Assembly (NCBI GenBank): GCA_022821645.1
Contig: JAJEDE010000026.1
Location: forward strand, 62,001 to 126,000
Length of the DNA: 64,000 bases
DNA from: Chloroflexota bacterium
GTDB taxonomy: Bacteria > Chloroflexota > UBA11872
Direction: 5' to 3'
The position numbers and the translations under genes were made by a program. The notes below the pieces were generated by a model, which saw only the letters and a list, made by a program, of their open reading frames with translations, ran no database searches and was not told the origin of the DNA. The first letter of the stretch is position 1. Every line of letters begins with the position of its first letter. Of this stretch, positions 14,258-64,000 are shown piece after piece.

Positions 14258-15159
14258 GTGTGCGCCGCTGGTAGCCCGTAGGCGGGTCGTGCCCGCCGTA
14301 CGCCCTGGATAATGGCGGCCGAGAACGCTTCGGCAGCGGCGTGCCCCACCGCCGTGAGATCGAAGTCCCCGGCACGGGTGCCCAGAGCCACGGCAAAAAT
14401 CGCGTCGCCGTCGTTCATGCCATGGGTCGGACGCACGGCTCGCGCCAGGCCGTCGTGCGACATTTCAGCGACTTTCCGAAGCTGCCAGCGTTCCAGCACG
14501 GCATTCACGGCCACGATACCGATCGTAGTGTTTTGGCCAATACCCGCCTGGGTCGTATTGGGACCCGCGGCCAGTTGGCGCCCGGTGTTCGGGTCATGGA
14601 CGGCGCCCGCCGGGTTCACGACCGCCAACGCGGCGGCCTCAATTGTTCCGCTACACCACAAGGCGCTGCCAAGGCCGCCCTTCAAGCGACCAACGCCGGA
14701 TCCGATGGTCGCGCCGGTTCCCGCGCCCACATTGCCTTGCTGAATCGGCGCTGTGGTTGCCGTGGCGGCGGCCGCCTCGCCCGAGGCGGCGTTTGGTCGG
14801 ACCGACGGATCACCGACTGACAAGTCGTAAATGACCGCTGCCGGCACAATGGGCACCCGGCCGGCTGCGGTCGGAAACCCACGATCCCGTGCTTCCAGGA
14901 ACCTCATCACACCATCAGCCGCAGACAATCCAAAGGCGCTTCCACCGGTCAGAAGTATGGCGTCGGCGTGGCCTACCAGCCCGCCCGGATGCAGCGCGTC
15001 GGTTTCTCGAGTCCCGGGAGCCGATCCGCGGACATCAACGGCAGCCGGCACGGCACGCTCGAATAGCACCACCGTACAGCCAGTACCCGCGTGGGTGTCT
15101 GTCCAATGTCCCACCCGCACGCCTGGCAGTGCGGTGAGCGTCGAATTCGCGTCGGCCAC
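14254..15159 (-). CDS. P1-family (DmpA/NylC-type) N-terminal-nucleophile peptidase
   Basis: The product belongs to the P1 aminopeptidase/6-aminohexanoate oligomer hydrolase family, whose precursors cleave themselves to expose a nucleophile. Landmarks are A-L-P-G-V-R-V-G-H-W near the N terminus, L-T-G-G-S-A-F-G-L-S-A-A-D-G-V-M, and G-T-G-A-T-I-G. The likely cleavage site is in N-T-T-I-G-I-V-A-V-N-A (T as nucleophile), followed by G-M-N-D-G-D. I prefer the GTG at 15159 (301 residues). An ATG at 15234 would remove all space before the divergent gene and adds an unconserved 25 residues. Confidence 0.85.
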   Translation of the reverse strand: MADANSTLTALPGVRVGHWTDTHAGTGCTVVLFERAVPAAVDVRGSAPGTRETDALHPGGLVGHADAILLTGGSAFGLSAADGVMRFLEARDRGFPTAAGRVPIVPAAVIYDLSVGDPSVRPNAASGEAAAATATTAPIQQGNVGAGTGATIGSGVGRLKGGLGSALWCSGTIEAAALAVVNPAGAVHDPNTGRQLAAGPNTTQAGIGQNTTIGIVAVNAVLERWQLRKVAEMSHDGLARAVRPTHGMNDGDAIFAVALGTRAGDFDLTAVGHAAAEAFSAAIIQGVRRARPAYGLPAAHT

Positions 15160-15232
15160 GTGCTGCCTCGGACATCTCGAAGATGTGGACAGATTGTCAC
15201 AGACGCGCTGCGGCGCCTGAATAGAATCGTCC

Positions 15233-16510
15233 ATGGCGCGACGTTTTTCGCGGCGAATGTTTGTAACCGGGGCGGCTATCGCAACCGCCGCGTGCGGCGC
15301 CGCGGTTCAGTCAGCCGATGTGCCGCAGGCGTTGGTGGTTGCGGCAGGCGACGAACCGAGTGTCGACCTTCCGACCCCCGTGGTCGACGATCGTCAGTTG
15401 CGAGCGAGTCTAATGGCCGACGCAACAAGACTGGCTCGAATGGATGCAACGTCGTCGTTGCGAACGTCGGACCTTGGCGCGGCGCTGATTCGCTCGATAG
15501 GTGAGACTGGCCTGGATGCCGAACGCCGTGATTTCCTGGCCACTGGTCGCGGCCTCCCAGCCGTAAGCCTTCGAGTAGACGGTGACTTCTATCTCGCCGT
15601 AGGCATGATCTACTCGGCCATCGGTGTGGTCGAGGGACCGCTGCTCGAGGCCGAAGTCGACGAGGAGGGAACGCTTCGCGGATCGGGCTACGACGGTGCC
15701 GTTGTACTTGTAGCTCGCGGGGTCACGCCCTTTCGTGTAATTGGCCGGCTGCTTGAGGACGCCGGCGCCGCCGCCGTCATCATTTACAACAACCGCCAGG
15801 GTCTGCTCTACGGCACCCTCAGCCAGCCATCGAAGATTCCCGTGGTTTCCGTGACGGAGGAAGCCGGCGAGGACCTGGTTGAGCGCCTGGGACATGGTGA
15901 GGCTCGGGCCGTCGTGGATGTCTCCGCGCCACCGCGGTCGTTTGAGGGCGCGAATGTCATCGGGCATCGGGCTGGGCCGTCGCGGCGTCAGATCGTCGTC
16001 ACCACGCCAGCGGACAGTCACTTGGGCGACTACTCGGATGGCGGCAACGCCGATGGACTTGCGCTGCTCCTCGCGCTGGCACGCCACGCCGACGAAGTAC
16101 GACCCACGCATTCAATCAGCTTTGTCGCGTTTGACGGCTCGCATCGTGGATACGTCGGCAGCCGGTGGTACCTGGCGCACCTGTCGGAAGACGAGCGCGA
16201 GTCCATCGACGGCGTTCTCGCATTCGATCGGCCGGGACGCTCGCAACCGTTGCAAGTTGGCGCCTCGGCCACGCTCACCCCGCTGATCGATCAGCGACTC
16301 GAGGCCATTGGCGCTGACCTGCGAGTGATGCCAGACGTTGGCGTGGGGCGCGGCGACCACGACGTGTTTTCCGCTCGCGGGGTGCCCTATGTCTTCCTTA
16401 CTCGCGCCGGCCCCGGGAAAATCTCAGCGGATCACCTTGTTCGTGCATTCGAGGTTGCCACCGCCGCGCTCGACGTGATGGATGGCCTGGATTCGAGCGC
16501 CGCGCCCTAG
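15233..16510 (+). CDS. Tat lipoprotein with PA domain and degraded M28 peptidase domain
   Basis: The 425-residue protein starts with a twin-arginine signal, S-R-R-M-F-V, and a lipobox-like A-T-A-A-C with the cysteine at residue 21, so it is probably exported folded and lipid-anchored. A protease-associated (PA) segment spans about residues 130-230. The rest resembles an M28 zinc aminopeptidase. However, the usual H-x-D and E-E metal and catalytic motifs are replaced: T-P-A-D-S-H-L-G where H-x-D is expected, and F-D-G-S-H-R-G where D-G-E-E is expected. It may be a non-catalytic homologue. A TAGAAT box 5 bases upstream of the ATG suggests a leaderless transcript. Confidence 0.8.
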   Translation: MARRFSRRMFVTGAAIATAACGAAVQSADVPQALVVAAGDEPSVDLPTPVVDDRQLRASLMADATRLARMDATSSLRTSDLGAALIRSIGETGLDAERRDFLATGRGLPAVSLRVDGDFYLAVGMIYSAIGVVEGPLLEAEVDEEGTLRGSGYDGAVVLVARGVTPFRVIGRLLEDAGAAAVIIYNNRQGLLYGTLSQPSKIPVVSVTEEAGEDLVERLGHGEARAVVDVSAPPRSFEGANVIGHRAGPSRRQIVVTTPADSHLGDYSDGGNADGLALLLALARHADEVRPTHSISFVAFDGSHRGYVGSRWYLAHLSEDERESIDGVLAFDRPGRSQPLQVGASATLTPLIDQRLEAIGADLRVMPDVGVGRGDHDVFSARGVPYVFLTRAGPGKISADHLVRAFEVATAALDVMDGLDSSAAP

Positions 16511-61531: not shown

Positions 61532-61738
61532 CTAGGTCCAGAACCGGCTGATCACCGACACGATCGCTCCGGTGGCCACTACCGCGGCTAAGACGGACCC
61601 AACCATCCATTTGATCAGACGCGTTTCCAGGGCGTGCAAATCGGCCTTGGTTGCAAATGTCGGCAGTTTCGCGTCAAGCGTGGCTTCAATCCTGGTCAGC
61701 CGACGCTCGATGTCGAGGGCGTTTAGCTCGGCCGTCAT
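61532..61738 (-). CDS. Small coiled-coil membrane protein, dispersed fourth copy
   Basis: The 68-residue product M-T-A-E-L-N-A-L-D-I-E-R-R-L-T-R-I-E-A-T-L is clearly related to the three tandem proteins at 48260-49172. It shares I-E-R-R-L-T-x-I-E, L-P-T-F-A-T-K-A-D-L-H-A-L, and a C-terminal W-M-V membrane helix ending R-F-W-T. The coiled-coil portion is the shortest of the four. It is on the opposite strand, over 12 kb away, so the family has moved around the chromosome. Confidence 0.72.
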   Translation of the reverse strand: MTAELNALDIERRLTRIEATLDAKLPTFATKADLHALETRLIKWMVGSVLAAVVATGAIVSVISRFWT

Positions 61739-62062
61739 CCGTGCCTCCGTGCGTGGCAGGGCTTAGTTCCCGCAGTCAGAAAAATCGAGAGCCCGCCGCA
61801 CCGCCTACAGAAGGCCGAGCCTCAAGAATTGTAACGCGAGGCACTGAGGGCCAAAGCCACGGTCAAACCCGACGTTTAGCGCCCCTCGTGGTTGATACCG
61901 CGCCCCGGCCGTCGCCGCTAGGACGGTAGGAAGCTATTCCCAGCACGCTGAGCCACGTGCGAAACGCTCGACCGTCCGAGTACGAGCCATGACCAAAAGC
62001 CAGGCACAGCCCTCCTTGGCCCTGAAACCGACTCCCGGATCCTCTGCTGAGGCTGCTTCGGG
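61739..62062. other. Gene-free stretch
   Basis: Between the small membrane protein and the SelW-like gene I see no convincing gene, strong hairpin or repeat. Short open frames here lack ribosome-binding sites and conserved features. Confidence 0.5.
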
Positions 62063-62314
62063 TTACCCCGCCAGCGCCGCGCTCACCAGCGGCAGAACTT
62101 CGCCGTCCTCCGCGTGGCGTCCAAGCGACTTCTTCGAGAACACCAGGTCCCCGTCGACGACCACTTCGAACACTCCGCCGCCCGAAGGCATCAGCGTCAT
62201 CTCGCCAACGTCGGTCCCATGCTCGCCCAATATCTCCTCCGTCGCACGGACGGCTTTAGGGAGATAGTTTCATTGGCTGCAGTATTCGATCGAAATTCGG
62301 GCGCCGCGTCCCAT
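62063..62314 (-). CDS. SelW/Rdx-family selenoprotein with in-frame TGA (CxxU)
   Basis: Read through one TGA, this frame gives 83 residues: M-G-R-G-A-R-I-S-I-E-Y-C-S-Q-U-N-Y-L-P-K-A-V, ending F-S-K-K-S-L-G-R-H-A-E-D-G-E-V-L, a few more residues and TAA. This is the SelT/SelW/SelH (Rdx) thioredoxin-like fold: a beta-strand leading into C-x-x-C/U, then G-G-V-F-E-V-V-V-D-G and K-K-x-L-G-R-H, all family hallmarks. The TGA (62270-62272) sits exactly at the second active-site position, C12-x-x-U15. An AAGGGAG ribosome-binding site lies 6 bases before the ATG, and a SECIS-like hairpin follows the TGA. These proteins are small redox proteins. Frame and conservation continue on both sides, which argues against a dead gene. 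Confidence 0.88.
62231..62272 (-). promoter_or_regulatory. Bacterial SECIS-like element
   Basis: On the - strand, three bases after the UGA, TATCTCC (62266-62260) pairs perfectly with GGAGATA (62237-62231). Inside it, after a 6-versus-1-base internal loop, CCGTC pairs with GACGG around the 5-base loop CGTGC (62248-62244). The apical loop begins 22 bases after the UGA and has G at its second position. Bacterial SECIS elements are known to lie directly downstream of the UGA with a small G-containing loop at this distance, where SelB binds. Confidence 0.75.
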
Positions 62315-62397
62315 GATGCACTCCCTTGCGTGGCGGAGTCGTTGCGTAGACCGGCCTATTGTCGCATGCACGCCGCCGCCAACAACAATGGCGGGCC

Positions 62398-64000
62398 TCA
62401 TCCGCAATCTTCCCGCACCTCCATCGGCAGCTTGATCTCCCCGAACCACGAATCTTCGACCATCCCCAGTGTCAACAGATAAGCGCCGGGGCCGGACGGC
62501 GCCTTGATGCCCCCCTCAAAAGCCATCCCCGATCCCGTCCCGATTCCCGGCCCTTGGTAGGTCTGCACCTGCAGCAGCCGCCCTTCCAGGTCCTCCAGTC
62601 GTTGCAGGATGAACCGGTCGTCCGCCGTCGACCAGCGAAACCCGACAAGGTGATCCTGGCCCCACGCCTCTGCGCCAACATTCACCGCCTGCACCTGGGC
62701 CAGCGTGGTCGTCCCTGGGAACAGGCAGGTCGGCAGCTTCAGGACTCGTAGTTCCGCGGCAAGGGCGGGAATCGCGTCTTCACTCGAAGTGCGAACCTCG
62801 ACTACCACGGATGCCTTCGGCGCATCGTCAATCACCAGCCGCACCCGGTATCGACCGGCAGCCGAAGGCGACTGAGTACCAATCAACTCAAGCGCCGGAA
62901 CCATCGCCCCGGCGGCAATCACCGGCGGCAGCCGCAGCCGCACATCCTGCCGAACAGCCTCGCCTCCCCCCAGCCGCTCCCAGACCAGGCTGCCCGATGC
63001 GATCCCCCGGCGTGATGCCGGAACCCACGCCCGGTCGGCCGGGTTGGAAAACGTGACCGACAGGTCGACGGTGGCCTCCGGCGCTATGTTGGACGCCAAT
63101 CCCAGCCGCAACTCGACATCGGACAACGAACTGTTCGGCGGTGTGCCCGGCGGACCCACGTCGATGACAACGAACCCCTCCGTCTCGCGCGCCGCCGCCA
63201 ACGGCTGCACGGTTCGAATGGTGGCCAGCCATGCCTCCACCCGCTCTGGTGCTAGGTAGTCCCGGTCCAGCACGACCGTTCGAACGCCAAAGGCAACCAG
63301 GGCCTCCAGCACGTCCCGCCGGTTCCCGTCATCGGCCCAGTACGTCATCCGCCCCAACTGCGACGTGCCGCGCGGCTCGTAGCCGGAATACCCGTCCACA
63401 ATCGGCTGGCGCCCCCCGTGCAGCGTCCACAGGGCGCGCTCGACGTTCCGAACCTGGTGCTCGTGAGTCCGTTCAACGTCCAAGCCAAGTCGCTCGCCGC
63501 CAATTGGAATAAAGGCCACGGGCCCCTCCGTCGCCGCGGCCAGCGCCGCCTGCAGATTCCGGTCGTACGGAATCGGTGCCCCCGACGTCGGGACGCGAGC
63601 GAATTCCAATGCAAGGAACCCAAATAAAGCCACGCCTACGGCCCCGGCCGCCAAACCCCCTGGCCGCCGCCACCGCATTAGCCGGTCGAAAGCAATAGCG
63701 CCCAGCAAGGCCATCGCCAGCACCATCCCAACAGCCAGGAACTGTGGATTCCGCATCGCGGCAAATCCCGGAATCAGCGCGTACGCGGCGCCAGACGGCA
63801 GTCCGATGCCCGTCAATTCGCCGCTCCACCAGAGCTCCGGCCCCAGCGTCAGGACGAACATCAGCAGGCCGCTGAGCCCCAACCCAAGCGTCACCCACCG
63901 CAAGCGCCGCGTCGCGGTACCTGCGGCCAGCCCCAGGCAGGCCAGCACCGCCGGCATCAGCGCAGGAAAGCTAACGTCAAACCCCTGTACGCGCTCGGCA
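62398..64000 (-). CDS. Large membrane protein with C-terminal periplasmic domain (partial, runs off right edge)
   Basis: The frame is open to the window end; an internal ATG at 63957 exists, but the reading frame continues upstream of it, so the N terminus is probably outside. The visible roughly 530 residues begin with four hydrophobic segments (L-A-C-L-G-L-A-A-G, L-S-G-L-L-M-F-V-L-T-L). A long soluble part starts after A-L-E-F-A-R-V-P. It has V-A-F-I-P-I-G-G-E-R and D-G-Y-S-G-Y-E-P-R, then beta-sandwich-like repeats. The layout resembles the C-terminal half of YfhO/GT-C-type membrane proteins involved in glycan assembly. That assignment is tentative. Confidence 0.65.
   Translation of the reverse strand, partial: AERVQGFDVSFPALMPAVLACLGLAAGTATRRLRWVTLGLGLSGLLMFVLTLGPELWWSGELTGIGLPSGAAYALIPGFAAMRNPQFLAVGMVLAMALLGAIAFDRLMRWRRPGGLAAGAVGVALFGFLALEFARVPTSGAPIPYDRNLQAALAAATEGPVAFIPIGGERLGLDVERTHEHQVRNVERALWTLHGGRQPIVDGYSGYEPRGTSQLGRMTYWADDGNRRDVLEALVAFGVRTVVLDRDYLAPERVEAWLATIRTVQPLAAARETEGFVVIDVGPPGTPPNSSLSDVELRLGLASNIAPEATVDLSVTFSNPADRAWVPASRRGIASGSLVWERLGGGEAVRQDVRLRLPPVIAAGAMVPALELIGTQSPSAAGRYRVRLVIDDAPKASVVVEVRTSSEDAIPALAAELRVLKLPTCLFPGTTTLAQVQAVNVGAEAWGQDHLVGFRWSTADDRFILQRLEDLEGRLLQVQTYQGPGIGTGSGMAFEGGIKAPSGPGAYLLTLGMVEDSWFGEIKLPMEVREDCG

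Follow-up and report, generated by a model that had tools for sequence, protein, structure and literature searches.

Bacterial SelW-like selenoproteins are known from the Sargasso Sea (PMC1088965) and from the GOS data (PMC2398784), with 427 as the GOS figure in the accessible portion of that paper. The accessible portion of PMC1088965 takes the CxxU motif as a sign of a redox role and reports an interaction of SelW with glutathione. A survey from 2006 (PMC1794560, accessible sections) puts the selenoproteins of the Chloroflexi at three, each from a different family, and describes SelW-like proteins as having very few Cys homologues in organisms that use selenocysteine (Sec). Among the open-licence papers searched, none has the selenoproteome or the selenoproteins of the Chloroflexota as its topic by title, and the terms SelW and Chloroflex are absent from the accessible text of PMC12013277, PMC9312934 and PMC13188914. 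The gene described here lies in a 64-kb stretch of DNA from a member of the Chloroflexota, hereafter called the window. It belongs to the same family as the Sargasso Sea and GOS proteins and has the same CxxU motif, and in both cases the UGA is closely followed by a bacterial SECIS or SECIS-like element whose small apical loop contains a G. The host of the window gene is a member of the Chloroflexota, and, as far as the accessible parts of PMC1088965 and PMC2398784 go, no difference of kind is seen. The SelW family has long been known, and the window gene adds one further bacterial member to it.

The selW-like gene is located at positions 62063-62314 on the - strand and extends from an ATG to a TAA, encoding 83 residues with the N-terminus MGRGARISIEYCSQU when its single in-frame TGA is translated as U. 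The TGA is codon 15 (62270-62272, - strand), the predicted Sec codon, and the partner cysteine is encoded by a TGC at codon 12 (62279-62281, - strand), giving the CxxU motif C12-S-Q-U15 near the N-terminus of the protein. Both columns are invariant in our alignment of 42 sequences (A1), in which U is shown as C, and column 12 is Cys in 42/42. The sequences GGVFEV and KKSLGRH, the hallmarks of the family, are both placed on the C-terminal side of the TGA codon. A ribosome-binding site, AAGGGAG, is present 6 nt 5' of the ATG (62321-62327, - strand), and AAGGGAG or GAGGGAG occurs at this position in 11 of the 12 nearest loci, the one without it being L032. The 83-residue frame, the placement of the TGA at the second redox position of C-S-Q-U, the downstream hallmarks and the ribosome-binding site had been proposed in the initial annotation, and all were recovered here, the 83-residue Rdx protein being confirmed both by its translation and by its match to the Pfam family. 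The locus represents a clean example of a gene that annotation with the standard code would probably lose.

The protein scores well above the cut-off for Pfam Rdx (PF10262; 69.5 bits, cut-off 22.6) and for NCBIfam TIGR02174, CXXU_selWTH (52.6 bits, cut-off 34.2). It is also a member by score, just above the cut-off (90.8 bits, cut-off 88), of NF041051, SelTWH_Campy, described as a SelT/SelW/SelH family (seleno)protein, a name that we take to indicate Campylobacterota. The solved Rdx structures 2fa8 (Atu0228), 3dex, 2ojl and 2obk, along with Selenoprotein W (2npb), match within residues 5-69, with 2fa8 as the best match (E 1.7e-14) and 2npb at E 0.0072. In the aligned sequences of 2fa8 and 3dex, a Cys is found where the window protein has its predicted Sec. 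A search of the source genome with the Rdx profile returned the window locus, with its one TGA, as the sole match. As a test of how often such a frame arises by chance, we collected all frames in the 64-kb window in which a TGA forms part of a CxxU or UxxC motif, a start is found upstream of it and 40 or more codons stay open after it. The 23 resulting frames were scanned against Pfam at E 0.001. Two of them gave a match, and the frame at 62063-62314 was the only one with a domain that spans its TGA. In the other matching frame, at 14831-16510, the TGA is located at about residue 130 and the matches to PA and M28 start at residues 286 and 375.

The initial annotation also reported a SECIS-like hairpin after the TGA, and such a structure was found at 62231-62266 (- strand), in which a lower stem of 7 bp is followed by an upper stem of 5 bp and capped by the apical loop CGUGC, which starts 21 nt after the UGA. 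The segment 62231-62272 has a folding energy of -12.8 kcal/mol (z -2.6), and longer stretches give z values of about -1. The accessible text of PMC13188914 sets the limits of a bSECIS element at a loop of 3-9 nt with a G in the first two positions, an upper stem of 4-16 bp, a distance of 16-37 nt from the UGA and a minimum free energy of -7.5 kcal/mol or lower, and, judged by eye, the window hairpin lies within every one of these (5-nt loop, 5 bp, 21 nt, -12.8 kcal/mol). An Rfam search of 62000-62400 up to E 10 identified no SECIS, the sole match being to an unrelated Streptococcus sRNA (E 3.9). For comparison across the family, we used 75 distinct, codon-aligned 48-mers from 94 TGA-bearing records, with L079 dropped as it contains an N. 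All five pairs of the upper stem form in 44 of the 75. Synonymous resampling, repeated 1000 times, yields 6.9 on average and never more than 21, registers slid by 1-3 positions yield 0 to 9, and among the Cys homologues the count is 0/7. Standard pairs changed on both sides were observed at four of the five upper-stem pairs, one of them in a single sequence, and the fifth pair is G-G in 17/75. The second position of the loop is a G in 75/75, which may reflect constraint on the protein since it is a second codon position, and a G followed by G or U is seen in 64/75. Taken by itself, the window sequence offers modest evidence: 15% of its synonymous resamplings produce the five-pair stem and 4% reach its energy, so that it takes the whole family to make the hairpin convincing. 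The exact stem is absent from 31/75 homologues, some of which (for example L056, L067 and L072) form a hairpin next to it instead, and when 48 nt are folded, 10 of the 11 nearest loci favour another pairing that lacks the 7-bp lower stem, with the bases of the upper stem unchanged.

The source genome is a draft bin of 3.55 Mb in 28 contigs, estimated to be 95.44% complete and 7.13% contaminated. It contains selA (437.2 bits to Pfam SelA, cut-off 22.8; TIGR00474, E 1.7e-154), selB (345.6 bits, cut-off 242.25), selD (369.4 bits, cut-off 125; interrupted by an in-frame TGA) and one tRNA-Sec with the anticodon TCA (71.2 bits, gathering threshold 47). The four genes selA, selB, selC and selD, whose absence had been named as evidence against a selenoprotein, are thus all present. 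A second Rfam match to tRNA-Sec above the cut-off, on contig C11, was identified as tRNA-Ser(TGA) by ARAGORN, and Rfam alone is accordingly not specific. Contamination of the bin does not explain these results, because selA, selB and a TGA-bearing Rdx gene were found in 12/12 of the same-genus genomes drawn. With selA, selB, tRNA-Sec and selD in place, the organism is able to insert Sec.

The in-frame TGA of selD (L019; G000:C12:9971-10897, - strand) is located in the motif GAGUACK, and the gene is a predicted selenoprotein gene. This motif corresponds to the known Sec/Cys site of SelD. Seven of the 15 AhpC/TSA-type matches in the genome also hold one TGA (loci L128-L134, on contigs C27, C4, C10, C2, C18, C18 and C7). 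By motif, all seven TGAs appear to occupy the active-site position, six in U-x-x-C and one in TPGU. Together with SelD and SelW, this amounts to nine predicted selenoproteins in the few families searched, and the proportion of AhpC/TSA-type genes with an active-site TGA points to a selenoprotein-rich genome. The search for CMD/AhpD-like selenoproteins gave no CMD match at all in this genome, and two matches to GCS2 were found.

Since the genome is a draft bin, and a single base change turns a Cys codon into TGA, the TGA at 62270-62272 could in principle be a sequencing error, or a genuine stop followed by the remains of a decaying pseudogene. The homologues bear on this question. A scan of contigs with six peptide patterns, one of which finds only Cys forms and none of which favours TGA, yielded 72 loci from assemblies labelled as Chloroflexi, Actinomycetota, Gemmatimonadota, Planctomycetota and Desulfobulbaceae, among others, the nearest being Chloroflexi/Chloroflexota MAGs. 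Codon 15 is a TGA in all 71 loci that are readable there, across many separately named assemblies; the remaining locus, L092, is a partial match near a contig end, where the alignment stops short of this codon. The count refers to sequence assemblies and speaks against a sequencing error. The frame downstream of the TGA, for which disruption in close relatives had been proposed as a contrary sign, is intact in the nearest loci. Relative to the window, pN/pS is 0.06-0.14 for the 11 nearest loci, which are 88.5-94.0% identical to it, and 0.33 for L032 (59.5% identical), and the changes at codon positions 1, 2 and 3 number 80, 32 and 249 in the 12 comparisons to the window, L032 included. This pattern indicates strong purifying selection through the whole frame, and an error or a pseudogene is extremely improbable. 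The same substitutions bear on whether the true gene could be on the opposite strand, where the open reading frames 62114-62482 (+) and 61989-62267 (+) overlap the locus. The former is open for 122 residues, and in 12 of 13 sequences one antisense frame runs across the gene without a stop, but neither of the two reading frames has a family match in Pfam and the substitutions track the codon positions of the Rdx frame on the minus strand, leaving hardly any probability for 62114-62482 as the gene.

An open frame is in itself silent on which residue is inserted, and the UGA might instead specify a residue other than Sec, such as Trp or Cys, through a suppressor or an altered genetic code. Against this, the 519-residue frame immediately upstream (62398-63957) terminates at a TGA, the tRNA with the anticodon TCA scores as tRNA-Sec, the SECIS-like hairpin is present, and the TGAs in the SelW, SelD and seven AhpC/TSA-type genes are all placed at redox or known Sec positions. 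We therefore regard this reading as very unlikely. The interpretation put forward in the initial annotation is supported overall: of the three observations that it had named as contrary, namely missing Sec genes, an error at the TGA and a disrupted frame in close relatives, each was looked for and none was made. We conclude that the gene very probably encodes a SelW-type (Rdx) selenoprotein, into which Sec would be inserted at codon 15.

During translation, SelB carrying Sec-tRNA(Sec) would bind the hairpin just 3' of the UGA, and Sec would be inserted there in place of termination in a SelB-dependent manner. The protein would be thioredoxin-like, with Cys12-x-x-Sec15 as its thiol/selenol redox centre. 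The Sec may attack a substrate that is oxidised or of the glutathione type, and Cys12 may resolve the intermediate, with re-reduction possibly provided by a low-molecular-weight thiol or by thioredoxin.

To place the gene in the phylum, we searched 301 Chloroflexota genomes and found Rdx in 138 of them. Among the matches listed, a one-TGA copy is found in at least 99 of these genomes, and 37 show uninterrupted copies only; two genomes, G047 and G282, were left out of this division, their matches not being among those listed. The TGA was read directly at codon 15 in 22 loci and in the window's own, and the remaining genomes were counted by the presence of one TGA. The 22 come from a set of 30 loci from the best phylum matches, in which the Cys homologues that the initial annotation suggested looking for were also found, seven loci having a TGC or TGT and one, L110, giving no alignment. 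At E values up to 1e-70, and among the matches listed, selB was identified in 96/99 genomes with a TGA-bearing Rdx and in 28/37 with uninterrupted Rdx only, and it was found in 108/163 genomes without Rdx. The three with a TGA-bearing Rdx and no selB match at E 1e-70 (G044, G197 and G259) are 83-89% complete, and all have a selA match. The counted genomes are related to each other and the counts are not independent, so that Fisher values for selB and Rdx, which treat them as independent, overstate the evidence. Since 28 of the 37 genomes with only uninterrupted Rdx among the matches listed have selB, Cys-type and Sec-type Rdx are found together among the Chloroflexota that decode Sec, and some genomes (G105 and G153, for example) list both forms. 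The same count is a poor fit to the statement on Cys homologues in the accessible sections of PMC1794560.

Based on the AhpC/TSA-type, SelW and SelD genes of the source genome and on the at least 99 of 138 Rdx-containing genomes with a one-TGA copy, it is likely that this Chloroflexota lineage is rich in selenoproteins and relies on Sec for much of its peroxide and thiol redox chemistry, and that Sec is commoner than Cys in the Rdx proteins of the phylum sample. The results suggest that Sec use belongs to the ordinary redox biology of these little-studied Chloroflexota. With TGA-bearing and uninterrupted Rdx genes in one phylum, and matched data on selA and selB, the exchange between Sec and Cys becomes testable.

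The gene neighbourhood was compared at the 12 nearest loci, some of which have short flanks, and no operon partner of selW could be established across them. The 519-residue gene directly upstream (62398-63957, - strand) has no Pfam match at E 0.01 and is present in 4/12, and an aldo/keto reductase gene is found near selW in 9/12. Downstream of selW, a gene for a 68-residue protein (61532-61738, - strand) is present in 10/12; it has no Pfam match above the cut-off and, by eye, a hydrophobic stretch at its C-terminal end. In one of the loci, L023, about 1 kb rather than 0.3 kb separates selW from the 68-residue gene, and this interval contains a frame of 249 residues (L023:3344-4093, - strand) that may resemble creatininases.
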